NCBI RefSeq assembly: GCF_001650715.1 | Contig: NZ_LWQT01000088.1 | Location: forward strand, 186,001-250,000 | DNA: 64,000 nucleotides | From: Paramagnetospirillum marisnigri | GTDB taxonomy: Bacteria; Pseudomonadota; Alphaproteobacteria; Rhodospirillales; Magnetospirillaceae | Direction: 5' to 3' | Shown: one piece after another, positions 13,707 through 37,193 of the stretch | Layout of the letters: the number at the start of each line of letters is the position of its first letter | Numbering within the stretch: position 1 is the stretch's first letter | Program-made: the position numbers and the translations under genes | Notes under the pieces: model-generated | Seen by the model: only the letters and a program-made list of their open reading frames with translations | Databases searched by the model: none | Told to the model about the DNA's origin: nothing

Positions 13707-13827
13707 TTGCTAATATATTCCTTACATGGCGGTCGGGAATGTGTCAAGGTCTGGCACCCAAGCTTTACGGAACCGGTCGGCAATGACATCATCGCGTGCA
13801 GTCCTCGCCCATACCCCCGGAAGTCGC

Positions 13828-14315: not shown

Positions 14316-15470
14316 CTACAAGATCGAGCGGTACAGCTCCTCCACGTCGGTCTGGGTCATGTCGCGGGGATTGTTGGCCAGCAGGCGCTGGATGCCTACC
14401 GTGACCTCCTGGGCCATGGAAGGGATGTCATCCTCGCTCACTCCCAGTTTGCCCATGCGCATTTCCAGCCCGCCCAGGGCGGCCAGCCGGTCCAGCTCCG
14501 CCACGAAGGCTTCCGCGGCGGCGGAGGCATTGGCGAAGCCCTGTCCCGGCAGTACCGCGCTCGCCAGTTCGGCGTAAAGTCCCGCCGCCACCGGCAGGTT
14601 GAAGCGGAACACCGGCCCCATCACCAGGGCGTTGGAATGGCCGTGGGGCACGTGGAAGCGGGCGCCAAGCGGATAGGCCAGGGCATGGACCGAGGCCACC
14701 GAGGCGTTGATGAAGGCCATGCCGCCCAGCATGGCGCCTTGCAGCATGGCGGCGCGGGCCGCCATGTCGTGACCATTCCGCAGCACCTTGGCATAGTTGC
14801 CGCAGAGCAGGTCCAGCGCCTTGAGGGCCAGGCAATCGGCGATGGGATTCTTGCGGGTGCGGCTGGTATAGGCCTCGACGGCATGGACCATGGCGTCGAG
14901 CGCGGTGGCGGCGGTGACCTTGGGCGGCATGCCCACGGTCAGCTCGGCATCCAGGATGGCGATGTCGGGCAGCAACTGGCGGGAATAGACCGCCTTCTTC
15001 TCGCCCGCCGCATTGGTGACCACCGAGACCCAGGTGACTTCCGACCCGGTTCCAGCGGTGGTTGGAATCTGGATCAGCGGCGACCGCTTGCCGGTGGCGA
15101 GGTCGGTGCCGAACATCTCCTCGATCTTTTGCTCCGAGCGCAGCAGCAAGGCCACCAGCTTGGCGGTATCCAGGCTGGAGCCGCCGCCGAGGCCGGCCAC
15201 GCCGTCGGCGCCGAATTCCCGGGCGGCGTCCACCGCCGCCAGCACCACGGCGACCGGAGGATCGGCCTGGACCCCGTCGTGGATCAGCGGCTCGATTCCG
15301 GCATCACGTAGGCTGGCGGCGGCCTTGGCGGCGAAGCCGCAGGCCCGGATGCCCGCGTCGCAGACCACCACTACCCGCCGTGCCCCCAGACCGGCCATCA
15401 GCTCGCCGGTCCGGGCCAGCCCGCCGATCTCGCAGACCAGCTTGGGCACGCTTTGGAAGACGAAGGACAT
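14316..15470 (-). CDS. iron-containing alcohol dehydrogenase (first copy)
   Basis: A 384-residue group III (iron-activated) alcohol dehydrogenase. The NAD-binding GLGGGSSLDTAKLVALL near 94-110, the TTAGTGSEVT motif near 137, the metal-binding DAMVHAVEAY near 193 and HALAYPLGARFHVPHGHSNA near 262 with two His ligands are present. RBS AGGGAG is about nine bases before the ATG at 15470. It is the last gene of the long minus-strand row that begins at 24271, separated from the dehydrogenase upstream by a palindromic repeat. Relatives include 4-hydroxybutyrate dehydrogenases, which would fit the adjacent succinate-semialdehyde-type enzyme, but substrate assignment is inference. Confidence 0.87.
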   Translation of the reverse strand: MSFVFQSVPKLVCEIGGLARTGELMAGLGARRVVVVCDAGIRACGFAAKAAASLRDAGIEPLIHDGVQADPPVAVVLAAVDAAREFGADGVAGLGGGSSLDTAKLVALLLRSEQKIEEMFGTDLATGKRSPLIQIPTTAGTGSEVTWVSVVTNAAGEKKAVYSRQLLPDIAILDAELTVGMPPKVTAATALDAMVHAVEAYTSRTRKNPIADCLALKALDLLCGNYAKVLRNGHDMAARAAMLQGAMLGGMAFINASVASVHALAYPLGARFHVPHGHSNALVMGPVFRFNLPVAAGLYAELASAVLPGQGFANASAAAEAFVAELDRLAALGGLEMRMGKLGVSEDDIPSMAQEVTVGIQRLLANNPRDMTQTDVEELYRSIL

Positions 15471-15507: not shown

Positions 15508-15617
15508 CCTGTCATCTCGACGACCATCGGGAGGAGGGATCTCTGCCTGGAATGCGGACGCCAAGTAAGAAATGTCGTTCCAGGATGGGATCCCTCGCTG
15601 CCGCTCGGGATGACAGG
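15508..15617. repeat. dispersed 110-bp palindromic repeat, copy A
   Basis: The ends CCTGTCAT and ATGACAGG are perfect inverted repeats. Inside, GGAGGGATCTCTGCCTGGAA on one arm pairs imperfectly with TTCCAGGATGGGATCCCTC on the other, so the element can fold into one long hairpin. Copies B (37085-37193) and C (40524-40632, opposite orientation) have the same layout. It fills most of the gap between the dehydrogenase and the iron alcohol dehydrogenase. It resembles a small non-autonomous element or bacterial interspersed repeat. Confidence 0.75.
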
Positions 15618-15644: not shown

Positions 15645-17105
15645 CTACTCCTTGATGCCGCCGAGGCAGAGATATTTGATCTCCAGGAAGTCCTCGACGC
15701 CGTATTTGCTGCCCTCGCGGCCGATGCCGGATTCCTTGACGCCGCCGAAGGGCGCCACCTCGGTGGAGATGATGCCCTCGTTGATGCCGACGATGCCGTA
15801 TTCCAGCTTTTCCGCCACCCGCATCACCCGCGCGACATTGCCCGCGTAGAAATAGGCGGCCAGGCCGAATTCGGTGTCGTTGGCCATGGCGACGGCCTCG
15901 GCCTCGGTGTGGAAGCGGAACAGCGGCGCCACGGGGCCGAAAATCTCTTCCCTCGCCATGGCCATGTCCTTGGTGACATTGGTGACGATGGTGGGTTCGA
16001 AGAAGGTGCGGCCCAAGTCGTGGCGCTTGCCGCCGCAGGCGATAGAGGCGCCCTTGGACAGGGCGTCGGCCAACAGGCGCTCCACCTTCTCGATGGCTTC
16101 CTGGTTGATCAGCGGCCCCTGGGTGGCGTCGGAAGTCAGGCCGGGGCCGACCTTCAGTCCCGCCACCGCCTTGGCCAGGCGCTTGGCGAACTCGTCATAG
16201 ACCCCGTCTTGCACCAGCAGGCGGTTGGCGCAAACGCAGGTCTGACCGGCATTGCGGTATTTGGACGCCATGGCGCCCGCCACCGCCGCGTCCAAATCGG
16301 CATCGTCGAACACGATGAAGGGGGCGTTGCCGCCCAACTCAAGGCTGACCTTCTTCACAGTCTTGGCGCATTGGGCCATCAGCAACTTGCCCACCTCGGT
16401 GGAGCCGGTGAAGGACAGCTTGCGCACCAGCGGATTGGCGGTCAGTTCGCCGCCGATCCCGGCGCCGTGGGCGGCGGTGACGATGTTGATGACGCCCTTG
16501 GGAATGCCCGCCCGCTCGGCCAGCTCGGCGAGCGCCAGGGCGGAGAGCGGCGTGTCCTCGGCGGGCTTGATCACCACCGGGCAGCCCACCGCCAAGGCAG
16601 GGGCGCATTTCCTGGTGATCATGGCATTGGGGAAGTTCCACGGCGTGATGGCGGCGACCACGCCGATGGGCTCCTTCAGCACGATGATGCGCTTGTCGGG
16701 GCCGTGGCCGGGGATGGTGTCGCCATAGACCCGCTTGGCCTCCTCGGCGAACCATTCGATGAAGGCGGCGCCATAGGCGATCTCGCCCCGGGCCTCGGCC
16801 AGCGGCTTGCCCTGTTCGGCGGTCAGCAGGACGGCGAGGTCCTCCTGGTTGGCCATGATCAGGTTGTACCAGGCGCGCAGCAGGTTGCAGCGCTCCTTGG
16901 CGGTCTTGGCCCTCCAGGCGGGCCAGGCGGCGTTGGCGGCCTCGATGGCGGCGCGGGTCTCGGCGGCGCCCATGTCGGGAACCGAGGCCAAAACCTCGCC
17001 CGTGGCCGGATTGGTCACGTCGAAACTGGCGCCCGAGGCGGCGCCGGTCCAGGCGCCGTTCACATAGGCCAGGGTCTTGAGCAGGGAGGAATCCTTGAGC
17101 TTCAT
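15645..17105 (-). CDS. succinate-semialdehyde dehydrogenase-type ALDH (second copy)
   Basis: A 486-residue aldehyde dehydrogenase closely related to the GabD at 12218. TPWNFPNAMITRK, FTGSTEVGK near 232, LELGGNAP with Glu257 and GQTCVC with Cys290/Cys292 occupy the same positions as in the first copy. It lies between two iron alcohol dehydrogenases, 13 bases after the first, so a route from alcohol to semialdehyde to acid is likely. GAAAGG is about nine bases before the ATG at 17105. Context links this copy to the sigma-54 unit, whereas the first copy goes with the hpa genes; related semialdehydes are possible substrates. Confidence 0.87.
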   Translation of the reverse strand: MKLKDSSLLKTLAYVNGAWTGAASGASFDVTNPATGEVLASVPDMGAAETRAAIEAANAAWPAWRAKTAKERCNLLRAWYNLIMANQEDLAVLLTAEQGKPLAEARGEIAYGAAFIEWFAEEAKRVYGDTIPGHGPDKRIIVLKEPIGVVAAITPWNFPNAMITRKCAPALAVGCPVVIKPAEDTPLSALALAELAERAGIPKGVINIVTAAHGAGIGGELTANPLVRKLSFTGSTEVGKLLMAQCAKTVKKVSLELGGNAPFIVFDDADLDAAVAGAMASKYRNAGQTCVCANRLLVQDGVYDEFAKRLAKAVAGLKVGPGLTSDATQGPLINQEAIEKVERLLADALSKGASIACGGKRHDLGRTFFEPTIVTNVTKDMAMAREEIFGPVAPLFRFHTEAEAVAMANDTEFGLAAYFYAGNVARVMRVAEKLEYGIVGINEGIISTEVAPFGGVKESGIGREGSKYGVEDFLEIKYLCLGGIKE

Positions 17106-17118
17106 GGCAAAAGACCTT

Positions 17119-18255
17119 TCAGTACACCTTGGCGTAGATGGCTAGCGCGTCATCATAGGCAACGTCGCGGGGATTGTTCACCAACAGCCTTTGCACCTTC
17201 ATGGCGTCCTCGGCCAGCATGGGCAGGTCGGCCTCCTTGATGCCCACATCGTGCAGCCGCTGCTCCATGGGCATCTCGGCCACCAGTTCGGCGATGGCGT
17301 CCAGCAGGTCGGCGCCCTTGGACTTGCCGGGCAGGATGGCGGCGGCCAACTCGCCATACAACGCCTCGGCGGCGGGCATGTTGAATTCCATCACCGGCAC
17401 CAGCACCAGGGCGTTGGACAGCCCGTGCGGCACATGGAAATGGCCGCCGATGGGATAGGCCAGGGCATGGACGGCGGCGACCGGGGCATTGGCGAAACTG
17501 ATGCCCGCCAGCATGGAGCCCTGCAGCATGGCGGCCCGCGCCGGAGCGTCGGCGCCGTCCTTCACCACCTTGCGGATATTGGCGTAAAGCAGTTGCAGCG
17601 CCTTGACGGCCATGCTGTCGGAAATGGGGTTCTTCTTGTGGCGGGTGGTATAGGCCTCGATGGCGTGGACCATGGCGTCGATGGCGGTCATGGCGGTGAT
17701 GCGGGCGGGCAGGCCCCAGGTCAGGGTCCCGTCCAGCAGCGCCAGATCGGGATAGAGCAAGCCGCTGACCACGCCCTTCTTCTCGTTGCTGGGCGTGGTG
17801 AAGATGGCGATGGGGGTGACCTCGGAGCCGGTTCCGGCGGTGGTCGGCACCTGGATCAGGGGCAAGCGCGGCCCCTTGGCCAGGCCAATGCCATAGATAT
17901 CGGGCAGGGCCTGGGGATTGCCCACCAGCAGCGCCACCAGCTTGGCGGTGTCCATGGAGGAACCGCCGCCGAAGCCGATGACGCCGTCGATCCCGGCCGT
18001 CTTGGCCGCCGCCACCGCGTCCAGTACCGAGGCTTCCGGCGGGTCCATCTTGACGTCGGTGAAGACGGTGGCCTGCATGCCCGCCGCCTTGAAGCCCTCC
18101 AGGGCGGGGGCCAGCAGACCGGCCGCCACCAGCCCGGCATCGGTGACGATCAGGGCGTGAGTGATGCCCAGTTCGCGCGACAACTCGGCCAGCCGGGCCG
18201 AGGACTTGTCCTCGCAGATGATGCGGGGCGTGGTCTCGAAGATAAAATTGCTCAC
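17119..18255 (-). CDS. iron-containing alcohol dehydrogenase (second copy)
   Basis: A 378-residue group III alcohol dehydrogenase, paralogous to the one at 14316. GFGGGSSMDTAKLVALLVG near 94, TTAGTGSEVTPIA near 137, DAMVHAIEAYTTRHKKNP near 192 and HALAYPIGGHFHVPHGLSNA near 262 supply the cofactor and metal sites. The start is GTG at 18255 with AGGAG eight bases upstream. It follows livF by 16 bases and precedes the aldehyde dehydrogenase by 13, so transport and oxidation genes appear to be one unit. Two such enzymes in one operon may differ in chain length or direction of the reaction. Confidence 0.87.
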   Translation of the reverse strand: MSNFIFETTPRIICEDKSSARLAELSRELGITHALIVTDAGLVAAGLLAPALEGFKAAGMQATVFTDVKMDPPEASVLDAVAAAKTAGIDGVIGFGGGSSMDTAKLVALLVGNPQALPDIYGIGLAKGPRLPLIQVPTTAGTGSEVTPIAIFTTPSNEKKGVVSGLLYPDLALLDGTLTWGLPARITAMTAIDAMVHAIEAYTTRHKKNPISDSMAVKALQLLYANIRKVVKDGADAPARAAMLQGSMLAGISFANAPVAAVHALAYPIGGHFHVPHGLSNALVLVPVMEFNMPAAEALYGELAAAILPGKSKGADLLDAIAELVAEMPMEQRLHDVGIKEADLPMLAEDAMKVQRLLVNNPRDVAYDDALAIYAKVY

Positions 18256-18271: not shown

Positions 18272-18919
18272 TCAGCCCGCTGTGACCACGCCCCGCTCGA
18301 TGCGGTAGGCGCGGTCCACCAGATCGGCGGAATGGGTGTCGTCGGATTCGGACAGGATCACGGACAGGCCCTCGGTGCGCAGCTTGGCGATGACCTCGGT
18401 CAGGCGGCGCGACAGCACCGGGGCGACGCCCTCGAACGGCTCGTCCAGCAACAGCAGGCGGCGCCCCGGCATCAGGGCGCGGGCCAGGGCCACCAGCTTC
18501 TGCTGGCCGCCCGACAGTTGCAGGGCGCGGCGGTCGCGAAACACCGCGACCTCGGGCATGATCTCATAGATCCACTCCAGCCGGGGCGCGGCATCCTTGA
18601 TGCCGTTGGCCCAGGCGGGCATCAGGATGTTCTCCTCCACGGTCAGGGCGGGGATCAATCGGCGATCCTCGGGCATGTAGCTGATGCCCAGCCCGGCGCG
18701 CTTGTGGCCGGGCAGGGCCATCAGATCGGCGCCGTCCAGACTGATGGCGCCGGCCTCGGCGGGCAGCAGCCCCATGATGGAACGGATCAGGGTGGTCTTG
18801 CCCGCGCCGTTGCGGCCGATCAGACCGACCATGGTGGCGTCGGGGACCTCCAGGCTGACGCCGCGCAGCACCGGGATCTTGTGGATGGCGACGTCCAGCG
18901 CCGCGATGGATAGGCTCAT
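18272..18919 (-). CDS. livF: branched-chain amino acid-type ABC transporter ATPase LivF
   Basis: A 215-residue ATP-binding subunit of a HAAT/Liv-type importer. Walker A is GRNGAGKTTL near 35, the Q-loop region is YMPEDRRLIPALTVEENIL near 82, the signature LSGGQQKLVALARAL near 134, and Walker B LLLLDEPFEGVAP near 155. It is shorter than most LivF proteins (about 235), and the usual VEQN segment after Walker B is replaced by ILSESDDTHS, an odd H-loop region. The ATG overlaps the livG stop by four bases, with AGGAGG upstream. Neighbouring dehydrogenases suggest a non-amino-acid cargo. Confidence 0.88.
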   Translation of the reverse strand: MSLSIAALDVAIHKIPVLRGVSLEVPDATMVGLIGRNGAGKTTLIRSIMGLLPAEAGAISLDGADLMALPGHKRAGLGISYMPEDRRLIPALTVEENILMPAWANGIKDAAPRLEWIYEIMPEVAVFRDRRALQLSGGQQKLVALARALMPGRRLLLLDEPFEGVAPVLSRRLTEVIAKLRTEGLSVILSESDDTHSADLVDRAYRIERGVVTAG

Positions 18920-19701
18920 GACGACCTCCTGGCGCGGCCGTGGCCGCCGTGCCCGTGGCCCACCACCAGTTCGCGGACCTTGGCATCGTCCAGCACCTGA
19001 TCGGGCGGGCCGTCGGCGATGACCTCGCCCGCATAGAAGGCCAGGATACGGCTGACATACCGGGCGACGATCTCCATGTCGTGCTCCACGAACAGAACGG
19101 TGACGCCGTGGCGACGGACCACCTCCATGACGCTGTCCATCAGGGGGAATTTCTCTTCCACCGCCACTCCGCTGGTGGGTTCGTCCAGCAGCAGCATCTT
19201 GGGGTTGGCGATCAGCGCCATGGCGATGTCCACCAGCTTGCGGGTGCCCTGGGGCACCGCCGTCACCTGATGGTCGCGGAAGGCGGCGACGCCGAATTCC
19301 TTCAAGGTGGCCTCGGCCTTTTCCACCCGCTCAGGCGTCCGCAACGGGCGCAGGAAGGACGGCAGCGGGCTTTCGGCGATGGACAGCGCCACCAGCATGT
19401 TGTCCAGCACCGTCAGTTCCGGGAACAGCTGCGCCACCTGGAACGAGCGGGCCATGCCCATGCGGGTGATCTTGCGCGGCGCCAGACCTAAGATGGAGCG
19501 GCCGTTGAACATGATCTCGCCCGCGCTGGGGGGCAGGAAGCCGGTGACCATGTTGATGAAGGTGGTCTTGCCCGCTCCGTTGGAGCCGATCACGCCCACC
19601 ACCTCGCCGGCATGGATGGCGACATTGATGTCCTTGGCCGCCACCACCGCGCCGAAGGTGCGGTGCAGCGAGCGGGATTCGAGAATGGGGGTCTGGCTCA
19701 T
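18916..19701 (-). CDS. livG: branched-chain amino acid-type ABC transporter ATPase LivG
   Basis: A 261-residue ATPase subunit. Walker A GSNGAGKTTF lies near 38, and the LivG-type insert (GMARSFQVAQLFPELTVLDNM) follows. Walker B reads MLLLDEPTSGV. The ABC signature is not LSGGQ but VPQGTRKLVDIAMAL; comparable variants are known in some LivG proteins. The C-terminus ends in a His/Gly/Arg-rich tail (GHGHGGHGRARR). The start at 19701 overlaps the livM stop by four bases. The reading frame is open upstream through livM but has no support there. Confidence 0.88.
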   Translation of the reverse strand: MSQTPILESRSLHRTFGAVVAAKDINVAIHAGEVVGVIGSNGAGKTTFINMVTGFLPPSAGEIMFNGRSILGLAPRKITRMGMARSFQVAQLFPELTVLDNMLVALSIAESPLPSFLRPLRTPERVEKAEATLKEFGVAAFRDHQVTAVPQGTRKLVDIAMALIANPKMLLLDEPTSGVAVEEKFPLMDSVMEVVRRHGVTVLFVEHDMEIVARYVSRILAFYAGEVIADGPPDQVLDDAKVRELVVGHGHGGHGRARRSS

Positions 19702-20642
19702 ACCCGGGCCTCCGCCTTCCTGGTGCGTTTGAACAGGCTCCACAATCCCTTGGGCAGGAAGATGATGATGCCCAGCAGCACGAAGCCCAGGATCATCTGC
19801 CAGGAATGGGGAACGAACTGGATGGCATAGGTGCGGACCGTCGAGAACAGGCTGGCGGCCACGAAGGGCGCCGCCACATGGCCGATGCCGCCCAGCAGGG
19901 CGATGAAGACGAACTCGCCCGATGTGGTCCAATAGGCCATCTCGGGGTCCACATGGCCGGTGGCCATGCCGGTCAGCCCGCCGCCCAGGGCCGAGACCGC
20001 CGCCGCCAGCACATAGGTGGAATACAGCGTCCAACGGGGCGAGGCGCCCAGATATTCCACCCGGACCTCGTTCTCGCGGATGGCCTCGCAGACATAGCCG
20101 ACGCTGGACTTGGACAGGCGGTGCAGGAACACCGCCGCCACCGCCGCGATACCGCAGGTCAGCACATAGACGAACATCTTGCCGCTGGAACCAGGAGTCC
20201 AGCCCAGCGCGGTGATGCCGTGGACGTTGAAGCCGTCGGTGCTGCCCAGCGATTGGCTCTTGGCCAGGACCCCATACAGGATCATGGAAAAGGCGAGCGT
20301 CAGCATGGCGAAGAAGATCTCGCGATAGCGGGTCAGCAGCAGCCCCAGCACCATGGCGACCACCGCCGCCGCAACCATGGACAGCGCCAGCAGTACGAAG
20401 GCGTCGTGGACGCCCAGCCATTGCCCGCCCATGCCGACGGTGTAGCCGCCGATGCAGTAGTAGAGGCCCTGGCCGAAGGACACCAGTCCGGCCCGCATCT
20501 GCACCACCACACCCTGGACCACCAGTCCCTTGGCGAAGGCGATGGTCAGCAGGAAGGTCAGCCAGTTGGGCAGGACGAAGACACCCAGCGCCAAGACCAC
20601 GCCGGAGGCCAGCAGCCAGAGTTCGGTTCGATCGAGGCGCAT
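19698..20642 (-). CDS. livM: branched-chain amino acid-type ABC transporter permease LivM
   Basis: A 314-residue permease with about nine hydrophobic segments. It carries the LivM pattern GLVSFGQGLYYCIGGYTVGM near 52-71 and the conserved cytoplasmic coupling region IRENEVRVEYLGAS near 197. GGGLTGMATGHVDPE near 224 is also typical. It starts two bases after the livH stop and ends in an overlap with livG. Together with LivH it forms the membrane channel of the importer. Confidence 0.9.
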   Translation of the reverse strand: MRLDRTELWLLASGVVLALGVFVLPNWLTFLLTIAFAKGLVVQGVVVQMRAGLVSFGQGLYYCIGGYTVGMGGQWLGVHDAFVLLALSMVAAAVVAMVLGLLLTRYREIFFAMLTLAFSMILYGVLAKSQSLGSTDGFNVHGITALGWTPGSSGKMFVYVLTCGIAAVAAVFLHRLSKSSVGYVCEAIRENEVRVEYLGASPRWTLYSTYVLAAAVSALGGGLTGMATGHVDPEMAYWTTSGEFVFIALLGGIGHVAAPFVAASLFSTVRTYAIQFVPHSWQMILGFVLLGIIIFLPKGLWSLFKRTRKAEARV

Positions 20643-20644
20643 GA

Positions 20645-21544
20645 TCAGATCTTCCTCACGAGGGTGCGGCCGAACAGCCCTTGCGGGCGCACCGCCAGGA
20701 CCAGCGACATGACGCTGTAGATGACGAACAGTTCAAGCTCGGGGGCGAGATGCACCGCCATGGCCCGGGTCAGCCCCACCAGAACCGCTCCGGCGGCGGC
20801 GCCGCCGATGGAGCCCATGCCGCCCACCACCACCACGGCGAAGGCCAGAACGATGACCTCGACGCCGATGCCGGGGGAAACCGAGATGGCCGGCGCGGTC
20901 AGGGCTCCGGCCAGGGCGCCCAGGGTGGCGCCGACGGCGAAGGTGACGGCGAACATGGCCTTGACGTTGACGCCCATGGCCACCGCCACCTCGCGGTCAT
21001 GGATGACGGCGCGCAGCAGCTTGCCCTTGTGGGTCTTGTTCAGGATCAGCCACAGGCTGATGCCGATGGCCAGCGACACCCCCACCAGGCCCAGGTCGTA
21101 GATGGCGAAGGTCAGGCCGCCGAAGGTGGAGCGGCCCATCAGGGAATAGGGCTGATAGGTGAAATAGGGATCGACGCCCCACACCAGCTTGACCGCGTCC
21201 TCGAGGATCAGCAGCAGGGCATAGGTGATGATCACCATCAGGATCTCGTCCTTGCCATACATGCGGCGCAGCAGGGCGAATTCGACCACCAGTCCCACCA
21301 CCAGGCCGGACACCAGGGCGGCGCCCACCAGCAGCAGGTAGCTGACGTAAGGATTGCCGCCCACTCCGGTGAACCACCAGCCCACCAGCGAGGCGGCCGA
21401 ATAGGCGCCGATGGCGTAGAAGCTGCCATGGGCCATGTTGAGGATGCGCATGACGCCGTAGATCACGGTCAGTCCGGCCGCGACCAGGAACAGCCACGAG
21501 GCGTAGATGGACCCGTCCACCAGGATGGCGAGAAGCGTTGTCAT
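20645..21544 (-). CDS. livH: branched-chain amino acid-type ABC transporter permease LivH
   Basis: A 299-residue permease with about eight membrane segments. ILNMAHGSFYAIGAYSAA near 35-52 is the hallmark of LivH, followed by LLRRMYGKDEILMVIITYALLLI and AVIHDREVAVAMGVN near 180. GGMGSIGGAAAGAVLVGL near 240 is also conserved. GGAGC is seven bases before the ATG at 21544. It follows the binding-protein gene by 66 bases and is joined to livM. Confidence 0.9.
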   Translation of the reverse strand: MTTLLAILVDGSIYASWLFLVAAGLTVIYGVMRILNMAHGSFYAIGAYSAASLVGWWFTGVGGNPYVSYLLLVGAALVSGLVVGLVVEFALLRRMYGKDEILMVIITYALLLILEDAVKLVWGVDPYFTYQPYSLMGRSTFGGLTFAIYDLGLVGVSLAIGISLWLILNKTHKGKLLRAVIHDREVAVAMGVNVKAMFAVTFAVGATLGALAGALTAPAISVSPGIGVEVIVLAFAVVVVGGMGSIGGAAAGAVLVGLTRAMAVHLAPELELFVIYSVMSLVLAVRPQGLFGRTLVRKI

Positions 21545-21610: not shown

Positions 21611-22918
21611 TCAATCGCACTTGGCGCCGGGCATGCCCGCCTTGATCCATTCCTGGCCGTTGGTCCCATCCGGCGGGGTGACGCAGGTGTCGGCGTAGGA
21701 CTTGACGTTCTTCAGAACGGCCCGGCCGCTTTCATAGTGGTATTCGCCATAGGCGATGCCCTGCATGGCCTGATGGCCGCTGGCGCGGGCCATCTTGACA
21801 GTACCCGAGGGCGATTCGAAAGTGATGCCGGTCATGGCGGCGACGATCTGGTCCGAGCTCGGCTGCTTGCCAGCGGGGGCGGCCTTTTCCACGGCGGTCT
21901 TCAGGGCCAGGATGGCCTGGGCCATCTTGAACGACGGATAGATGGGCTCATCGCTCCACTTGGCGCGATAGGCGGTCCGCAGCCAATCGGACAGGGCGTT
22001 CTTGGGGGCGAAGGCGCCGAACGGCCCACGTCCGCCGATCACCGTGCCGTTGGGAGCCTGGCCCTTGTAGCGCTCGATGCCGGTCTCGCCGCAGGTCAGC
22101 ACCAGGGTCTTGCCGTCGTACAGGCCACGGGCGCCGCCCTGCAGCACCAGGGCTTCCATGTCGCCACCCCAGAAGCTGGAATGGATGACGTCGGGCTTGG
22201 CCACCGACAGGGCGGAGATTTCGGCGCCGTACTGGCCCTGGAAAATCTTGGGGAACTGTTCGGCCGCCACCTTGGCGGTGGGCTTGACATGCTTCATGGC
22301 TTCGACGAAGTCGACCCAGGAATCCTGGCCCCAGGCGTAGTTCTGCTGGATACCGGCGAAGCTGGCCATCTTTGGGCGGGTGTCGGCCAGATAGCGGGCG
22401 GCGCCCACATTGTCGACCACGGCGTCGAGGCCGGTACGGAAGACGTATTTGGGGGCCTTGTTCTCGACGAACAGCCGCGAGGTGCCGCAGTCATACATGA
22501 TGGTCGGGATCTTCAGTTCCTCGGCCACCGGGCTGATGGCGAGACAGTCGCCCGACGAGATATAGCCGATGACGGCGTCCACCTTCTGGCGCTCCACCAG
22601 ATTGCGGAACTCTTCCACCTGCTTGGTGGCGCCGCCGTTCTCGTCGATGATGACGGCCTCGATCTCCATGCCGTTGATGCCCTTGGTGTTATAGGGGGCA
22701 GGCAACTGGCCCTTGTTGAGGGCGTCGATGACGGTCTCGGCGGCATGGGCCGAGGGAACGCCGAACGGACCGGCGGCGGCGCCGGACAGGAAGGTCACGA
22801 TGCCGACGCGGAACTTGCCGTTCTCGGCGGCCTGGGCGGTGGTGGCCGAGGCCAGGGCGGCGGTGGCCACGGCGGCGGTCAGGGCCCGGCGGGCGATGGA
22901 GGATTGGGTCATCTTCAC
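21611..22918 (-). CDS. Liv-type periplasmic substrate-binding protein (second of two)
   Basis: A 435-residue type I periplasmic binding protein of the HAAT family. The signal peptide has a basic start and hydrophobic core to about residue 28, with likely cleavage at AQA. The mature part begins FRVGIVTFLSGAAAGPFG, then NGMEIEAVIIDENGGATKQVEEFRNLV, the usual first-lobe pattern. GYISSGDCLAISPVAEE corresponds to the ligand-contact loop. The start is GTG at 22918 with GGGAG seven bases upstream; the next ATG is two codons later and poorly spaced. It lies between another binding protein and livHMGF, so it is probably a partner of that permease. Ligand unknown. Confidence 0.87.
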   Translation of the reverse strand: MKMTQSSIARRALTAAVATAALASATTAQAAENGKFRVGIVTFLSGAAAGPFGVPSAHAAETVIDALNKGQLPAPYNTKGINGMEIEAVIIDENGGATKQVEEFRNLVERQKVDAVIGYISSGDCLAISPVAEELKIPTIMYDCGTSRLFVENKAPKYVFRTGLDAVVDNVGAARYLADTRPKMASFAGIQQNYAWGQDSWVDFVEAMKHVKPTAKVAAEQFPKIFQGQYGAEISALSVAKPDVIHSSFWGGDMEALVLQGGARGLYDGKTLVLTCGETGIERYKGQAPNGTVIGGRGPFGAFAPKNALSDWLRTAYRAKWSDEPIYPSFKMAQAILALKTAVEKAAPAGKQPSSDQIVAAMTGITFESPSGTVKMARASGHQAMQGIAYGEYHYESGRAVLKNVKSYADTCVTPPDGTNGQEWIKAGMPGAKCD

Positions 22919-22954: not shown

Positions 22955-24271
22955 TCACGGTTTCCCGCCCATGACGGCCCGGCGTCTGCGCACCAGTTCG
23001 GGCGGGGGAATCAGGTCCTCGGCGGCATAGACCCGCCAGTCGGCCAGCATGACCTTGGCGGGGGGAAAGGCGGCATTGGGCACCACCTTGCCGATGGCCA
23101 TGGGCTGGACGATCTGATGGGTGGACTTGTCGATATAGGAGGTGAAGCCGTCCGGGTCCTTGGGCAGCTTCAGGCGCAGGGTCTCCAGGGCGTCGACCAT
23201 GGCCTCGACATCGTGGCGCGGCGCACTGGCCGTGACCGCGCTGGCGATGGCCATGATGCCGCTATAGGCCCCGGCGGCGGCATAGGTGGGGTAGCGTCCC
23301 TCGGAGGCATGGAAGCCGGTGACGAAGGCGCGGTTGCCCTCGGTCTCGGGCCAGTTGTTGTGGTGGCGCGCCGACAAGATCAGCCCCGGCGGCGGATTGG
23401 ACCCCAGGGCCAGCATCACCTCGTAATTGCCGCCGGTGTCGAAATTGGCCAGCCGGGAGGACTCGAAGAAGCTGGTGGTGGCGGCCTGACGCAGGAAGGC
23501 GACGAAATCGCCGCCCCACAGGGCGGTGACCACGATATCGGGCTTGGTCTCGACGATGGCGCTGATATAGGCGGAATAGTCGGGCTCATAGAGCTTGGGC
23601 CAGAACTCGCCCACATTGTCGTAGGCGACACCCAGCAACTGCAGGCTTTCGCGCAGATCGGTCCAGGAGGCATGGCCGTAATCGTAGTCGGGACCGATGA
23701 AGGCCATGCGCTTCCAGCCGGTTTCCTTCTGCAATTCGGCCAGATAGCGGGCTCCGGCGGCGTTGGAGGTCCAGGAATCGTTGCTGACGCGGAAATAGTA
23801 GCGGTGCAGGGCATCCATGGTCAGGCGCGACGAGGCATGGTCGGTGCCGACCATGATCACCTTCTGGGTGCGGGCCACCTCGCTGACCGCCTGGGCGACG
23901 CCCGAGCTGACCATGCCGCAGAAGAACTTGGCCTTGTCCTGGCGCACGAAGTCCTCGGCGATGCGCACGGCATAGGCGGCCTTGGAGCGGTCGTCCTCGA
24001 CGATGATGCGAAGCTTCGGGGGCTTGGGACCCAGCGTGCCCGCCTTCAGGTCGGCCAGGGCCAGCTTGATCCCCGCCACGCTGTCCTTGCCGTAGATGGC
24101 GGCGCGGCCCGACATGGGATACATGCAGCCGATGGTGACCTCGGCCTCGGCCGCCGGGGCGCCCAACTCGATGCGGGCCTGGGCGGCGGGCGCCAGCGTG
24201 GCCAGACCCAGCAGCGCGAACGCGGCTCGGGCAAGGCCGTGCAGACAGAGTCCGGGCAGGCTTTTCGGCAT
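22955..24271 (-). CDS. Liv-type periplasmic substrate-binding protein (first of two)
   Basis: A 438-residue HAAT-family binding protein. A signal peptide runs to about residue 32 (core AFALLGLATLAPAAQA), and the mature lobe shows VTIGCMYPMSGRAAIYGKDSVAGIKLAL and IIVEDDRSKAAYAVRIAEDFV. The start is set at the ATG at 24271. The frame is open to an ATG at 24334, but that one sits within the sigma-54 promoter at 24330-24345 and would not be in the transcript. It is the first gene of the long minus-strand unit. Two different binding proteins for one permease suggest two ligands or two affinities. Confidence 0.88.
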   Translation of the reverse strand: MPKSLPGLCLHGLARAAFALLGLATLAPAAQARIELGAPAAEAEVTIGCMYPMSGRAAIYGKDSVAGIKLALADLKAGTLGPKPPKLRIIVEDDRSKAAYAVRIAEDFVRQDKAKFFCGMVSSGVAQAVSEVARTQKVIMVGTDHASSRLTMDALHRYYFRVSNDSWTSNAAGARYLAELQKETGWKRMAFIGPDYDYGHASWTDLRESLQLLGVAYDNVGEFWPKLYEPDYSAYISAIVETKPDIVVTALWGGDFVAFLRQAATTSFFESSRLANFDTGGNYEVMLALGSNPPPGLILSARHHNNWPETEGNRAFVTGFHASEGRYPTYAAAGAYSGIMAIASAVTASAPRHDVEAMVDALETLRLKLPKDPDGFTSYIDKSTHQIVQPMAIGKVVPNAAFPPAKVMLADWRVYAAEDLIPPPELVRRRRAVMGGKP

Positions 24272-24329
24272 CCTCGACGTTTCCCCGCGCGACCGTGTTC
24301 CAGTCGCATTTATTATCGGATCATGAAAC

Positions 24330-24345
24330 TGCAACCCCCATGCCA
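24330..24345 (-). promoter_or_regulatory. sigma-54 (-24/-12) promoter
   Basis: On the minus strand TGGCATGGGGGTTGCA matches the consensus TGGCACRNNNNTTGCW at every defined position but one, with the exact GG/GC spacing. It lies about 60 bases upstream of the binding-protein ATG at 24271 and just downstream of an NtrC-type regulator gene, with palindromic sites at 24384-24446 in the position of activator sites. Confidence 0.85.
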
Positions 24346-24383
24346 GCGGATCGAGTCAGGAGGGCATTGTGGTTTTCCGATAG

Positions 24384-24396
24384 TGAGCGGCGCTCA
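24384..24396. promoter_or_regulatory. activator-site palindrome, promoter-proximal
   Basis: TGAGCGGCGCTCA is a perfect 6-1-6 palindrome about 39 bases upstream of the -24 element. It shares the TGAGCG half-site with the site at 24430-24446. Two direct copies of ACCGCTCAC at 24406-24414 and 24416-24424 lie between them. Confidence 0.6.
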
Positions 24397-24401
24397 TGCG
24401 C

Positions 24402-24446
24402 GGAAACCGCTCACAACCGCTCACGATGATGAGCGGTTTCCGCTCA
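24402..24446. promoter_or_regulatory. upstream activating sequence cluster overlapping the regulator gene's 3' end
   Basis: It holds a perfect 17-bp palindrome TGAGCGGTTTCCGCTCA (24430-24446), two direct repeats ACCGCTCAC ten bases apart, and a perfect 12-bp inverted repeat (GGAAACCGCTCA at 24402-24413 with TGAGCGGTTTCC at 24430-24441). The 17-bp palindrome lies inside the last codons of the response regulator (encoding about MSGNRSS). NtrC-type dimers binding here could loop to the promoter at 24330-24345. Confidence 0.7.
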
Positions 24447-25794
24447 TCAATCCCAGGCGCTGGAGGCGGCGCTTGAAGGCGTGGCGCGAGATGCCCAGCA
24501 GTTCGGCGGCGCGGCCCTTCTGCCCCCCGGCCCGGGCCAGGGCCTCGGTCAGCAGCACCCGCTCGCTGGCGTCCAGGCTGTCGGGCAGGCTCTGGCGCCG
24601 GTCGTCACCGCCTGCCATGCGGGGCTCCCGCGCCATGTCGGCGGGCAGTTCCGCGGGGGTGGCGGTCTGGCCGGGATGCAGGATGGTCAGGCGCTCGATC
24701 AGGTTCTTCAACTCGCGCACATTGCCCGGCCAGGAATAGCTGGCGAACAGGCGCTCGACCTCGGGGGCGAAGCTCACCGGCGGACAGCCGCTCTCGGCGG
24801 CGTAGCGCCGGGCGAAATAGCGGGCCAGGTCGAGGGCGTCGCCGCCGCGCTCGCGCAGGGCGGGCAGGCGCAACTGGATGACGTTGAGGCGGTAATAGAG
24901 GTCTTCCCGGAAGCGCCCGGCCTTGACGTCGGCGGCCAGGTCGCGATTGGTGGCGGCGACGATACGCACATCGGCGGTCTTGCCCTGGGTGGCGCCGATG
25001 GCGCGGTAATTGCCATTCTCCAGGAAGTGCAGGAACTTGGCCTGCAGCGCCAGGGGAAGCTCGCCGATCTCGTCCAGGAACAAGGTGCCGCCATCGGCCA
25101 GGGCCACCAGTCCGACCCGGCGCTGATGCGCCCCGGTATAGGCGCCCTTCTCGGCGCCGAACAGCTCGGCCTCGATCAGCTGTTCCGGCAGCGAGGCGCA
25201 GTTGACCTCGACGAAGGCGCCCCGGGCGCGGCTGCTCTGGTTATGGATGGAGCGGGCCACCAGTCCCTTGCCGGTGCCGGATTCCCCCAGCAGCAGCACC
25301 CGCGACGCGCTGGATGCGGCGATGCGGGCCACGGTGGCGATCAGGTCGGCCATGATTGGGCTGTCGCCGATGACGCCGTCGCCGCCCACCACGGATTTGC
25401 GGTGATAGGCGACCTCGGCCGCCAGCCTTTCCCGCTCCAGGGTGGTGCGGATGACATGGATCAGGTCGTCCAGTTCGAACGGCTTGGTCAGGTAGTCCGA
25501 CGCCCCCGCCTTGACCGCCTGCACCGCCGCCCTGGTGTCGCCATGGGCCGAGATCATCACCACCGGCAGGGTGGACTGGCGCTTGCGCAGCTGCTCCAGC
25601 ACCGCGATGCCCAGCATGTCGGGCAGGCGCTGGTCCAGCAGCACCAGATCGGGCGGGCGGCGCTCGATCTCGTCGAGCCCCTCGGCGCCGCTATGGACGC
25701 CCCAGGCGGCGATTCCCTCTCCCTTCAGGGCGAACACCACCGAACGCACCAGTTGGACCTCGTCGTCGATGATCAGGACGGAGATGTCAGCCAA
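24421..25794 (-). CDS. NtrC-family sigma-54-dependent response regulator
   Basis: A 457-residue activator with three domains. The receiver (1-120) has acidic D10/D11, phospho-acceptor D54 and K104 in LTKPF. The AAA+ domain (about 140-375) has Walker A GESGTGKG at 170-177, the sigma-54 contact loop GAYTGA at 217-222 (Tyr for the usual Phe, a common variant) and Walker B GTLFLDEIGELP. A Fis-type HTH (about 415-455, GRAAELLGISRHAFKRRLQRLG) closes it. The start is TTG at 25794, with GGGAG six bases upstream, overlapping the kinase gene by eight bases. It probably activates the sigma-54 promoter about 75 bases past its own stop. Confidence 0.93.
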   Translation of the reverse strand: MADISVLIIDDEVQLVRSVVFALKGEGIAAWGVHSGAEGLDEIERRPPDLVLLDQRLPDMLGIAVLEQLRKRQSTLPVVMISAHGDTRAAVQAVKAGASDYLTKPFELDDLIHVIRTTLERERLAAEVAYHRKSVVGGDGVIGDSPIMADLIATVARIAASSASRVLLLGESGTGKGLVARSIHNQSSRARGAFVEVNCASLPEQLIEAELFGAEKGAYTGAHQRRVGLVALADGGTLFLDEIGELPLALQAKFLHFLENGNYRAIGATQGKTADVRIVAATNRDLAADVKAGRFREDLYYRLNVIQLRLPALRERGGDALDLARYFARRYAAESGCPPVSFAPEVERLFASYSWPGNVRELKNLIERLTILHPGQTATPAELPADMAREPRMAGGDDRRQSLPDSLDASERVLLTEALARAGGQKGRAAELLGISRHAFKRRLQRLGLMSGNRSSS

Positions 25795-27475
25795 GGCGGT
25801 CTCCCGATCGCATCAGCGGCAGGCGGAGCGTCACGGTGGTGCCCTTGCCCGGCTCGCTGGCGATATGGATGTCACCGCCGTTCACCTCGGTCAACTGGCG
25901 ACAGATGCTGAGGCCCAATCCGGTGCCCAGCGCCCGGGTGGTGAAGAAGGGGTCCATGACCTTGGGCAGGTCGTCGTCGGCGATGCCGCCGCCGGTATCG
26001 GAGACCTCGATCAGCCCCCAATTGTCCTCCGAACGGGCCAGCAGGGTGATGGCGCCGTCCGGCGCGGTGGCCTGCATGGCGTTGACCACCAGATTGATCA
26101 GGATCTGCATGACATGGTCGCGATCGGCCAGCAGTACCAGATCGGCGCTGCCCATGACGCCCAGATGCAGCCCCTGGCGCTCGGCCTCGGGGCTGACCAG
26201 GGCATTGACCCGGCGGAACAGGTCGCGCACCGGCACCGGCCCGGTCTCGGGCGGGCGGGGGCGGCCGTATTCCAGCAGGTCCTCCATCACCCGGGTCAGG
26301 CGGTCGATCTCGGAACTGACGCCGTTGAGGATTTCCAGCCGCTCCAGGTCGCCTTCCTGGCGGGCCAGGGCCTGGACGCTGGTCTTGATGGTGGCCATGG
26401 GATTGCGCACCTCGTGGGCGACGCCGGTGGCGAACTTACCCAGCACCGCCATTTTCTCGATGCTGACGGTACGCTCGATCATCTGCGACAGCTTGCGCGA
26501 CATGCCGTTGAAGGCGCGCGACACCACGTTGATCTCGTCATTGCCGGTCTCGGGCAGGCGATAATCCAACTGCCCGGCCGACACCGCGTCGGCGCCGATC
26601 ACCAACTGGCGCAGGCGGCGGCGCAGCTTGGACGACAGCCGCAGGAACAGGATCGCCACGGCGGCCACCGAGCTGAAGACCAGCATGTACAGCCAGTGCC
26701 GGGCCTGATTGAACGGTCCCAGCAAGGCGTCGGGCTGGATCACCAGCGCCGCCTGCCAGCCCGGCGCGATCTCGGGGCCGGGCATCAGTTCGCCGCGCAT
26801 CCGCGCCACATGGCCCACGGTGTCGAACACGCCGCCGCCCGGGGTGGTCAGTACCGGCTGGATCAGGCTGCCGATCTCGGGGGCGCCCATCAGTTCGGTG
26901 ACCGAGGCCAGCCGCACATGCAAGGCGATGGTGCCGCTGTCCTCGCCGCTACGGGGATCGCGGAGCACCTGACGCATCAGGAACCAGCCGGGCGCGCCGT
27001 CCCTGGGCGCCACCGGGCCGATGATCTCGGTGCCGCCCACCTTGACCCGGGGCAGGCGCGAGATGTCGGGGGCCTCGCCGCCCCAATAGGGCGGACCCGA
27101 CGCCGCCTGGCCCGCGATCACTCGCGCCAGCCGCCCGGTGGCATTGAAGAACCAGATGCCGTAGAGGTCGGGCACGTCGGCCTCGATGCGCAACAGGGCG
27201 CTGATCTCGGGATCGTCGCGATCGGGACGGCCGACATAGGAGGCCAGCGACGGATAGTTGGACAAAGTGTCCAACTGGTAGATGCGGGTGTCGAAGAACG
27301 AGCCCAGCCGCGAGGCGGTGGCGGTCAGTTGCGCCGACAGGCGCTGGCCGGTGAGCGCCCGCAGGATGTCCTGGGCATAGCTGTCATAGAGATAGCCCAC
27401 TGCCGCCAGCGGCACCACGGCGGCCACCAGCGAGACGACGAAATAGCGAGACACCAGCGAGCGCGGCAGCATCAT
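25787..27475 (-). CDS. two-component sensor histidine kinase (NtrB/DctB-like)
   Basis: A 562-residue membrane kinase. A first membrane helix (about 11-30) and a second (about 262-281) bracket a roughly 230-residue periplasmic part that reads like a Cache-type sensor (SRLGSFFDTRIYQLDTLSNYP; GIWFFNATGRLARVI). HAMP follows near 280-335. The H box is GVAHEVRNPMATIK with His354, then N box NLVVNAMQA, G1 DTGGGIADDD, F box DPFFTTRALGTGLGL. Two adjacent ATGs (27475, 27472) can start it. It overlaps the response regulator by eight bases, so the pair is a cognate system. The periplasmic sensor could detect the same ligand the Liv-type binding proteins carry. Confidence 0.92.
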   Translation of the reverse strand: MMLPRSLVSRYFVVSLVAAVVPLAAVGYLYDSYAQDILRALTGQRLSAQLTATASRLGSFFDTRIYQLDTLSNYPSLASYVGRPDRDDPEISALLRIEADVPDLYGIWFFNATGRLARVIAGQAASGPPYWGGEAPDISRLPRVKVGGTEIIGPVAPRDGAPGWFLMRQVLRDPRSGEDSGTIALHVRLASVTELMGAPEIGSLIQPVLTTPGGGVFDTVGHVARMRGELMPGPEIAPGWQAALVIQPDALLGPFNQARHWLYMLVFSSVAAVAILFLRLSSKLRRRLRQLVIGADAVSAGQLDYRLPETGNDEINVVSRAFNGMSRKLSQMIERTVSIEKMAVLGKFATGVAHEVRNPMATIKTSVQALARQEGDLERLEILNGVSSEIDRLTRVMEDLLEYGRPRPPETGPVPVRDLFRRVNALVSPEAERQGLHLGVMGSADLVLLADRDHVMQILINLVVNAMQATAPDGAITLLARSEDNWGLIEVSDTGGGIADDDLPKVMDPFFTTRALGTGLGLSICRQLTEVNGGDIHIASEPGKGTTVTLRLPLMRSGDRLG

Positions 27476-27532: not shown

Positions 27533-30500
27533 TCAGACGATATGAATATCGGCCGCTGTGACCGTTGCCGGAGTGCTCGTATTGCTGTGAATGACAGCCA
27601 CGGCAGAGGATGTGCTGCCATCAGGGGTGGCACTATAGTAGAGAGTGCCATCTGTCGTATTGTAAACAAAGTGACGCGTGGCATCCGCTGTAAGTCCAGC
27701 CCCGGACACAAAGTCGCTTGCATTTAGGATGTTTGATGTGGCGTCAGTAGTAAATGCGGTGGTGAATTGAAGGTAGTCAGAAGCGTACTGCTTGAAGTAA
27801 TTGATGGTATCAGAGTTAACGTTGCCGACTGCTGTTACCTCTGAAACGCTGGAATAGTGAATTACCTCACCATTTCCAGTTTCAAAGGTATCGTGACCCT
27901 CTCCGCCAATTAATGTTCCATTTGTAAGGTATCTTGACAGCGTGTCGGCGCCAGTGCCGCCAATAATAGTCTCCCAGGCGCCGACAGAAATAGTGTTTCC
28001 ACCATTCGCGAGCACCAATACCTCGGTATGTCCGCCACCGATTGATCCTGAAACCTGGGCATTTGAAATGGAGTTCTGGATTGTAAGTGTATTTGTTGCG
28101 CCAGGTGCCTGTATCCCAATCAACTCTATGTTATAAATTGAAGCTGAGTTGTCTCCTGCATTGAATGCTAGGACGTCACTAGATCCTGCGCCAAAATCAA
28201 AAACGCCGCCGGTTACGTTGGTTCCAAGTACAACCGTATCGTTTCCGGTGCTCCCGGTAATAGTCTCGATATTGTTAGCGGTAAGGTTGTTGACACCATT
28301 GGCCAATGTTAGCCAGTCACTTCCGCCTGCCAAATCCAGGGTTCCACTGGTCATAACCGATCCTAGGGTAATGGTATCGGCTCCGGTCCCGCCGGTAATG
28401 GTTTCCGTGTAGGTGACAGTGAAGGAGTTGCCCCCGGCGGCCATGGTTAATATGTCGATTCCGGCGCCAAGGTCGATGGTGCCCGAGGTCTGGGAGGCAC
28501 TCAGGGTGATGGTGTCTGCGCCGGTGCCGCCGGTGATGGTTTCCGCGTCGCTCACGCTCAGGGAATTGGTGGCGTCATACAGGGTCAGGACATCCGTGCC
28601 AGCCGACATGGCGATGCTGGCGCCGGTCACCGCCCCGGTCAGGGTGATGGTGTCGCTGCCAATGCCGCTGTCGATGGTGATCAGCCCCGCTCCGGCGGTG
28701 ATGACGTCGGCGCCGCCGCCGCTGAAGATGGAATCCGCGCCGCCGCCGCCGTTGATGGTATCGTCGCCGCCATAGGTGGTGATGACATTGACGCCCGAAC
28801 TTCCGGTGATGGTGTTGGCATGGATCGAGGAGTGGGCGGTTACGTTCTCGATGTTGGACAGGGTGATGACATTGCCATTCTGGCTCGCCGTCCCGCTGGT
28901 CAAGTTGACAGTGGCGCCCGGCAGGTTGTTCAGATTGATCAGGTCGGTGCCGATGCCGCCGTCGATGGAGGTGGAGCCGCCAAAGCCACTGAACAAGAAG
29001 GTGTCATTGCCCGAACCGGCCAATACGGTATAGGCGTTTGCCGCCAGGGTGAAAGTATCGTTGTAGTTTGAACCGATCACCCGCGAGACGTTGGAAAGAT
29101 AGTCGGCCGACGAGTATCCGTCGGTGTAGTTGCCCGTGCTGTAATTGATATTTATCGCGGCGGTATCATTGGCATAGCTCATGAAATTCTCGCCAGTGCC
29201 TCCGGTGATGGTATCGGCGCCCGTGCTGTTGAAGATGGTGTCGACATTGGAAACGGAGAGCGTGTTGGCCCCGTTGGCCAGATACAGCACATCAACGCCC
29301 GCGCCGCCGTCGATGCTGACGCCACTGACCACGCCCGCCAGGGTGATGGTGTCGGCATTGGTGCCGCCGGTCAGTGATTCGATATTGGCGAGGGTGATGG
29401 TATTGGCGAAATTGCCCAGGATCAGCGCGTCGGTGCCGCCCGCCAGATCGATGGAGCCGCTGGTCCAGGCGGTGCCCAGGGTGACGGTGTCGCCGCTGGT
29501 TCCGCCGACAATGGATTCGACATTGGTGGCGGTCAGGCTGTTGGTGAAATTGCCCAGGTTCAGGATGTCGGTGCCGCCCGCCAGGTCGATGGTGCCGCCG
29601 GAGATGGCCGCGTTCAGGGTGATGGTGTCGGCGCCGGTGCCGCCGGTCACCGCTTCCACATTGCTGACGGTGATGGAGTTGACGCCGTTGGCCAGGGTGA
29701 GCGAGTCGCTGCCGCCCGCCAGATCGATGGTGGTGCCGGTGATGGCGCCGCCCAGGGTGACGACGTCGGCGCCGTTGTTGCCGTTGATCAATTCGATGCT
29801 GCTGACGGTCAGCGAGTTGCCGCCGCTGCTCAGATCAATCCGGTCATTGGCGGCACCGGTGCCGGTCACGGTGGCACCGGATAGCGAGGCGTTGAAAACG
29901 AGAGTGTTTTGCGTGCCGCCGCTGCTCATGGTGATGGTATCGACACCACTGCTGGTCAGGCTATGGGTGCCATTGGTCAGGGTGAGCGAATCATTGCTGC
30001 CCGCCCCGCCGCTGACGGTCAAGGTGGCGGCCGAGGCCAGCACGGTGATGTCGGTGTCGGCGAAGGGGACGGTGACGGAGGCGGCGTTGCTGTCGGTGGT
30101 GCTGGTGTCGGTCTCGCCGTTGAAGCTGGACAGAACCTGGATGGTGGCGACGCTGGTGGGCAGGGCGGCGGTGATGGTCTGCAGCGCGCCGCCGCCGGTG
30201 ATGTAAAGGGTGGTCAGGTCGCTGCTGAAATTGCTGGCATCCAGGCGGGTGGTCTGCGAGCCGAAACCGGCTCCGCTGCCCGGATGGGCAAAGATGGTCA
30301 AGGTCTCGACGCTGGTCAGGGTGGGCGCCAAATCAACCTCGTAGGGACCGCTGCCCAGGGCTTCGGTCTGCAATACCACCGAGTCGTTGCCGCTGCCGCC
30401 GATCACGGTTTCCACCGAGGAAACGGTCAGCGAATTGAAGACGCTGGCTAAGCGCAGGATGTCGGTGCCGCTGCCGCCCGTCACCGAAAGCCCGTTGAGG

Positions 30501-37084: not shown

Positions 37085-37193
37085 CCTGTCATCCCGACGA
37101 CCACCGGAAGGAGGGATCTCCGCCTGGAGTGCTGGTTTCAAGCCGGAAAAGTCGTTCCAGGATGAGGTCCCTCGCTGTCGCTCGGGATGACAT
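37085..37193. repeat. dispersed 109-bp palindromic repeat, copy B
   Basis: It begins CCTGTCATCCCGACGACCAC and ends CGCTCGGGATGACAT, foldable into one long imperfect hairpin like copy A. It is nearly identical to copy C at 40524-40632, which is in the opposite orientation. It lies just after the HlyD-family gene of locus 1. Confidence 0.8.

Follow-up and report, generated by a model that had tools for sequence, protein, structure and literature searches.

The window, a 64,000-nucleotide stretch of the Paramagnetospirillum marisnigri genome, probably contains a dedicated sigma-54 operon that is controlled by its own kinase-regulator pair through two copies of a palindrome. Based on comparison with relatives, we give this reading a probability of about 0.9. 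It would be an ordinary kind of control system in which the overlap of the enhancer with the end of the activator gene is unusual and evolutionarily mobile, which we regard as a well-supported prediction. The conservation of the site pair together with the promoter, the occurrence of held-out pairs in front of other genes of the cluster and the co-conservation of the regulator's recognition helix point to an enhancer-binding protein that is dedicated to a sigma-54 operon of its own. The features are the following:

14316..15470, minus strand: iron-containing alcohol dehydrogenase 2
15645..17105, minus strand: aldehyde dehydrogenase of the succinate-semialdehyde dehydrogenase subfamily (TIGR01780, 736 bits, cut-off 646)
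17119..18255, minus strand: iron-containing alcohol dehydrogenase 1
18272..18919, minus strand: LivF-type ATPase
18916..19701, minus strand: LivG-type ATPase, assigned by similarity and synteny (run on 18916-19680), with an ATG at 19701 predicted from the sequence
19698..20642, minus strand: LivM-type permease
20645..21544, minus strand: LivH-type permease
21611..22918, minus strand: second periplasmic binding protein (Peripla_BP_6)
22955..24271, minus strand: first periplasmic binding protein (Peripla_BP_6), first gene of the target operon
24331..24345, minus strand: predicted -24/-12 sigma-54 promoter, TGGCATGGGGGTTGC, with a match at the same place in relatives
24384..24396, minus strand: 6-1-6 palindrome, TGAGCGCCGCTCA
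24397..24413, minus strand: UAS2, proximal putative activator site, TGAGCGGTTTCCGCGCA, one mismatch to the 17-mer
24417..24423, minus strand: extra half-site TGAGCGG between UAS1 and UAS2, its TGA being the regulator stop codon
24430..24446, minus strand: UAS1, distal putative activator site, TGAGCGGAAACCGCTCA, a perfect 17-mer within the last codons of the regulator
24421..25794, minus strand: NtrC-type response regulator with a receiver, an AAA+ domain with GAYTGA and a Fis-type helix-turn-helix (HTH), the presumed activator
25787..27475, minus strand: sensor histidine kinase with HAMP, HisKA and HATPase_c domains

The sigma-54 promoter consensus is TGGCACG-N4-TTGCW, from which TGGCATGGGGGTTGCA at 24345-24330 on the minus strand deviates at one position. 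The original prediction had placed a -24/-12 element upstream of the ATG of the first binding-protein gene, and the element is indeed found at 24345-24331, with 60 bases from the C of its -12 part (24331) to the ATG at 24271. On its own such a match is weak evidence, as the pattern with up to one mismatch occurs at 32 places in the genome itself and at 21 in the reversed control. It is convincing because its position is conserved in relatives: TGGCA(C/T)-N5-TTGC occurs at the matching place in 29 of the 33 genomes with the binding-protein gene. Spaced by ten bases, the GG (-24) and GC (-12) of the element occupy this conserved place, and rpoN is present in the genome (TIGR02395, E 8.6e-128, above the cut-off). 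The comparison supports the predicted sigma-54 promoter of the binding-protein gene, from which transcription would start near 24319. The short gene start at 24271, which had been preferred to a longer one at 24334, is favoured because the TTG at 24334 belongs to the -12 element itself and because, in 10 of 29 loci, a stop codon interrupts the frame between the -12 position and the start codon.

Upstream of the -24/-12 element, the motif TGAGCGG-N3-CCGCTCA occurs in two copies on the minus strand. UAS1 is the perfect 17-bp palindrome that had been reported as the outermost one inside the regulator's last codons; it lies at 24446-24430, and its arms extend to a 10-3-10 palindrome. Direct repeats had also been reported, but the region is better described by the repeated 17-mer, whose second copy at 24413-24397 (UAS2) had not been recognised as the same motif. 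The two sites are 33 bp apart from centre to centre, and UAS2 lies 74 bp (7.05 turns of 10.5 bp) from the C of the -12 part. If up to one mismatch is allowed, the 17-mer is found at only three places in the 4.62 Mb genome, two of which are UAS1 and UAS2, and two sites with at most two mismatches in the 220-bp upstream region were seen in none of 200 dinucleotide shuffles for the window. At looser settings the motif loses this specificity. Matches to the 17-bp palindrome with three mismatches were not enriched in the window's own genome (283 versus 513 per strand in the reversed control), for which reason a genome-wide regulon of the motif was rejected there. The paired pattern at three mismatches gave 3 matches versus 3 in the control in this genome, and GAGCG-N5-CGCTC gave 9 places versus 5. 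A literature search with four spellings of the motif found no match, a result that applies to the papers searched and to those spellings only.

The predicted 6-1-6 palindrome is present at 24396-24384, but was rejected as a conserved site, as just one of 29 loci has the full element. In several relatives the right half-site alone is matched, by a CGCTC at +50/+51 relative to the centre of UAS1. Five loci (G000, G007, G073, G197 and G198) have GAGCG or CGCTC at +18 from UAS1. Extra half-sites such as those at 24384-24423 recur at these fixed distances from UAS1 across several lineages, and may be further weak contacts.

The conservation of the 17-bp site in relatives, which had been suggested as a check, was assessed with the first binding protein as a query. 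Within the same order, 32 of 317 genomes had a match at E 1e-100 or better, and a search of 385 genomes of the class with a limit of 1e-90 added a single new match, G614, from outside the order. The loci compared were thirty of the 32, plus G258 and G259, which were fetched separately. Both the site pair and the -24/-12 element precede the binding-protein gene in 28 of the 32 same-order genomes and in G614, that is, in 29 of 33 genomes. When the pair spacing could be chosen freely between 20 and 59 bp, it came out at 33 bp for 26 loci and at 32 bp for the other 3. Only one site was found at up to two mismatches in L138, L152 and L159, which was equalled by 2, 1 and 0 of 200 shuffles, respectively. 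The arrangement is absent before the binding-protein gene in G076, G169, G258 and G259, where sites occur elsewhere and are weaker. Since 19 of the 29 loci belong to one genus (g104, which may be Thalassospira-like), they represent about nine independent lineages by our grouping. Within g104, every one of the 19 genomes with the binding protein had a paired match, with up to three mismatches and anywhere in the genome, as opposed to 0 of the 10 lacking it. This result is telling only within g104 because the same pattern was found in 149 of 317 genomes of the whole order, mostly as background, with the reversed control often being higher. In the scan of genome contigs, relatives were at 33-47% among the matches listed.

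The strongest support for one regulon comes from pairs that had been held out. With a site matrix built from 14 loci, 335,883 bases from 16 sources were scanned at all spacings of 18-60 bp, using thresholds (total over 17, each site over 5) that were set after a looser scan at spacings of 31-35. The scan returned 24 pairs, 4 at 31 bp, 7 at 32 bp and 13 at 33 bp, and none at the other 40 spacings, versus a single pair, at 48 bp, in the reversed sequences. Ten of the 24 were already known binding-protein promoters, and the other 14, unused in the matrix, are located 90-236 bp before a match to a gene of the cluster or its neighbour. They precede the kinase in G076, G077, G258, G169 and G259, the second binding protein in G258, G169, G259 and the S. 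meliloti plasmid, dehydrogenase 1 in G258, G169 and G259, and, in the g104 genomes G288 and G268, a gene bordering the cluster. For 12 of these 14, the interval between pair and gene contains a -24/-12 element that agrees at 8 or more of the 11 fixed positions, a score equalled in no more than 6 of 500 base shuffles. The two exceptions are G076 and the S. meliloti plasmid cluster, whose pairs precede the gene without a -24/-12 element that stands out; in G076 the pair score itself, 17.2, is barely above the threshold. The held-out pairs tie the dehydrogenases and the transporter to the same sites, even where these form separate transcription units. The predicted regulon of the two-component system, both binding proteins, livHMGF and the dehydrogenases is in this way supported by comparison.

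The second promoter in g104 (L168 2508-3594, L179 2877-3018) has paired sites and a -24/-12 element, and the gene beyond the cluster in G288 (L168) encodes a PF04199 cyclase-family protein whose N-terminus looks secreted. In genus g88, a strong -24/-12 element lies before the kinase (L169 11577 on the minus strand, L170 2557 on the plus strand), near the AT-rich GTTATAACATA; no paired-palindrome match was found in these kinase promoters.

The gene order was compared with tblastn in 14 longer loci. The order kinase, regulator, first and second binding protein, livH, livM, livG, livF, dehydrogenase 1, aldehyde dehydrogenase and dehydrogenase 2 is kept in G007, G033, G073, G198, G288, G268 and G614, and the block is cut by the contig end in G197. 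Other loci are rearranged. G191 has no aldehyde dehydrogenase match and its regulator is about 6 kb away, the site pair having stayed with the operon. In G258, G259 and G169, dehydrogenase 1 and the aldehyde dehydrogenase form a separate, oppositely directed unit and dehydrogenase 2 has no match, while in G076 and G077 only the kinase and the regulator were found, with the first binding protein facing them in G076. Plasmid pC of S. meliloti LMB1 (L215 8919-22047) carries a cluster in the same order among transposases and integrases, for which reason this cluster may move between bacteria. An Azospirillum plasmid with the nearest dehydrogenase 1 was considered as a relative and rejected, as it carries a different cluster without the pair.

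Two further observations concern the surroundings of the operon. The 26-bp dispersed element GTCATCCCGAGCGNCAGCGAGGGATC occurs at 15589-15614, 37166-37191 and 40526-40551 with at most one mismatch, and in none of 100 shuffles; one copy lies between the aldehyde dehydrogenase and dehydrogenase 2 of the operon. On the same strand as the kinase and ending 57 bases before it, 27533-32647 encodes a protein of 1704 amino acids that contains a FecR domain and weakly matches an RTX-type repeat.

The adjacent two-component system had been named as the likely activator, which the comparison supports. The regulator contains PF00072, PF00158 and PF02954 above the cut-offs, and its sigma-54 loop reads GAYTGA, a variant of the GAFTGA that is the rule in NtrC-type enhancer-binding proteins. 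Its best family matches are the AtoC and NtrC equivalogs of NCBIfam with 410.4 and 401.4 bits; since these scores are far below the curated cut-offs for AtoC (714) and NtrC/NR-I (558.6), it was not filed as either equivalog. The HTH recognition helix SR(H/Y)(A/S)(L/F)KRR(L/M) is shared by all 17 cluster regulators, even at an overall identity as low as 50%, and by none of the 22 further NtrC-type regulators from the order included in the alignment. This alignment drew on L022-L048 and left out L028, L029, L034 and L037, whose match ends before the HTH, and L035, which has an internal stop. The pairs are conserved together with this helix in the cluster regulators, which are predicted to bind them. 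A search with the regulator at a limit of E 1e-130 gave matches in 7 of 398 genomes, including the window's own and three of g104; the regulator is at 59-60% identity in three g473 genomes, which belong to the same phylum and not to the same class. In one of these, G847, a pair at 33 bp lies directly behind the regulator stop codon; no pair was found within the 1.5-kb regulator flanks of the other two.

The palindromes could alternatively be bound by another DNA-binding protein. A MarR-family gene lies beyond the operon at 13726-14310, and G191 illustrates that the regulator gene need not adjoin the sites. This alternative is very unlikely given that the recognition helix is conserved in the regulators accompanying the sites and absent from the 22 others, and that the sites follow the regulator cluster through rearrangement, to the S. 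meliloti plasmid and to the distant genome G847. The MarR protein itself had no match at E 1e-10 in the loci of 14 relatives, although these loci may end before its position.

The distal site had further been predicted to be under a dual constraint, as a DNA site and as coding sequence for the regulator tail MSGNRSS. The first part holds, as the DNA site is conserved. The constraint on the protein is not supported, the translated tail not being conserved: among 28 loci with an adjacent regulator, the reading frame is translated into UAS1 in only three (G000, G007 and G073). In G075, G033, G068 and G198, the TGA stop codon of the regulator forms the first three bases of UAS1, and the gene stops short of it in G197, in G614 and in the 19 g104 loci. 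For the regulator in the window, the half-site TGAGCGG at 24423-24417 supplies the TGA stop codon. Because both the frame across UAS1 and the gene end vary, the tail looks like a by-product of a conserved DNA element. An explanation in which UAS1 is kept for its protein product, with the tail mattering for the regulator and the palindrome being incidental, could invoke the SGNRS- or SENRS-like tails common to the three genomes with a translated site. Its probability is close to negligible, since regulator orthologs end at LGLQ, LGLS, LGMD, LGL and similar, the DNA site is kept outside the coding sequence, and the reading frame across it differs between lineages.

At the same place, another use of the sequence has to be considered. 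A longer hairpin encloses UAS1 in G614 and in all 19 g104 loci; it has 12-15 pairs, uninterrupted or beyond one loop-side mismatch, in 17 of 20 loci, and more interruptions in L148, L152 and L167. By our count, at least five T occur in the next eight bases in 16 of 20 loci. A terminator scan picks this hairpin in L143, L149 and L167, and UAS1 of the window folds at -17.2 kcal/mol (33 bases). Based on these properties and on a covarying outer stem, the palindromes could be RNA hairpins that end or trim the kinase-regulator transcript, as a terminator or a 3'-end stem, and not protein sites. Against this stands the fact that the inner GAGCG/CGCTC arms are invariant in sequence, beyond what pairing alone would require, that the second palindrome is at a fixed distance from the first and that pairs precede genes not following the regulator. 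The scan counts are not clearly above those of shuffles either, with 1 hairpin found versus shuffle means of 0.8 and 0.9 in two of the three loci, and 2 versus 0.4 in the third. No terminator-like hairpin was found by the scan in the window at 24200-24600 or in G288, and a terminator at UAS1 was rejected for the window, where the hairpin has neither a T-tract nor a scan match, and for G288 as far as the scan goes. Taken as a replacement for protein binding, the RNA explanation is quite improbable.

Protein binding can be reconciled with the hairpin by the covariation computed over 10 sequences that differ in the stem region. While the inner GAGCG/CGCTC pairs never vary, 25 cells of the outer stem changed on both sides versus 8.5 in shuffles (0 of 500 as high), with a covariation score of 0.508, whereas slid versions reached no more than 0.147. 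Pairs with a double change, 5 versus 4.8 in shuffles (321 of 500), were not in excess. The natural reading is that two constraints may act on one element, protein binding on the inside and RNA pairing on the outside. In g104 and G614, the hairpin would then act as a terminator, and both functions might interact. A rather unlikely extension of this reading is that UAS1 generally has two uses, as the enhancer of the next operon and as the end of the regulator gene, where the bound regulator could be a roadblock that affects how its own transcript ends, and polymerase coming out of the regulator gene could strip it off the enhancer, thereby coupling the transcription units. The role at the gene end would in this case be that of a nested intrinsic terminator in g104 and G614, a stop codon in others and a translated tail in the window.

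A further line of evidence is the distance of the sites from the promoter. For the binding-protein promoters, one per lineage, the distance from the UAS2 centre to the -12 C is 63, 74, 75, 84, 85, 86, 108, 108 and 178 bp, and for the other promoters 63, 73, 73, 74, 83, 85, 91, 94, 94, 96 and 175 bp. Most of these distances are near whole turns at 10.5 bp. For 20 promoters, phasing as strong was reached in 5 of 20,000 cases at 10.5 bp and in 7 of 20,000 with a period free between 10 and 11 bp; collapsed to ten values, the counts are 121 and 211 of 20,000, respectively. With the first nine promoters, for which 224 of 20,000 were obtained, and 2,462 of 20,000 after collapsing to five, the result had been suggestive. 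The null, uniform over 55-180 bp, and the collapsing of related promoters were our choices, and we regard the evidence for whole-turn phasing as moderate. The phasing is compatible with looping-based activation on a single helix face that needs no integration host factor (IHF): between UAS2 and -24 in the window, the best candidate site has 4 mismatches to the IHF consensus.

A possible course of events is as follows. The kinase (25787-27475) would sense a compound and phosphorylate the regulator (24421-25794), of which two dimers would bind at 24430-24446 and 24397-24413. The palindromes are on the same face of the DNA because they are three helical turns apart, and the assembled AAA+ ring could reach the sigma-54 polymerase at -24/-12 through a short DNA loop with no recognisable IHF site. 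Sigma-54-dependent transcription would begin near 24319, and the transcript would span the two binding proteins, livHMGF, the two alcohol dehydrogenases and the aldehyde dehydrogenase. In the lineage of the window, the frame through the distal site would yield a presumably dispensable tail, SGNRSSS.

The substrate is the least certain part. Judged by analogy, it may be a 4-hydroxybutyrate-like hydroxy acid or its lactone, a tentative assignment with somewhat less than even odds. Solved relatives of the first binding protein did not discriminate between substrates, and both alcohol dehydrogenases match several families far below the cut-offs. The S. meliloti cluster adds a lactonase-like MBL hydrolase between the dehydrogenase and the succinate-semialdehyde dehydrogenase; it matches the AttM (BlcC) model weakly with 34 bits (cut-off 390) and AidB better, with 142 bits (cut-off 360). 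The Agrobacterium blcABC operon comprises three genes under the repressor BlcR and converts gamma-butyrolactone to succinate (PMC3907764). The Fe-type alcohol dehydrogenase and the succinate-semialdehyde dehydrogenase suggest a possibly shared chemistry. Unlike the cluster in the window, blcABC is described without a kinase, an enhancer-binding protein or a liv transporter (PMC3907764).

With this arrangement, a kinase-regulator pair gains a specific, testable DNA motif, a target operon and a spacing rule. The enhancer distances that vary by nearly whole turns are good natural test systems for face-of-helix activation, and an enhancer nested in a covarying terminator-like hairpin is a good system for studying the coupling of neighbouring transcription units. 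In a sigma-54 regulome study, coding conservation is stated to have precluded the computational prediction of enhancers within genes (PMC4641369). Here, constraints on DNA and protein are separable because the site lies outside the coding sequence in other lineages, and comparison across relatives can reveal an enhancer inside coding sequence.

As in other NtrC-type enhancer-binding proteins, the regulator has the receiver-AAA+-HTH architecture, and paired palindromes lie upstream of a -24/-12 promoter. The NtrC sites of glnA are likewise spaced by about three turns. The system also matches the general UAS logic of sigma-54 activators (PMC7175178, PMC4641369). In contrast to other NtrC-type systems, it has its own 17-bp motif, apparently for one cluster, and no IHF-like site in the window, and its distal site lies in the coding end of the regulator or, in relatives, at its stop codon or in a terminator-like hairpin.
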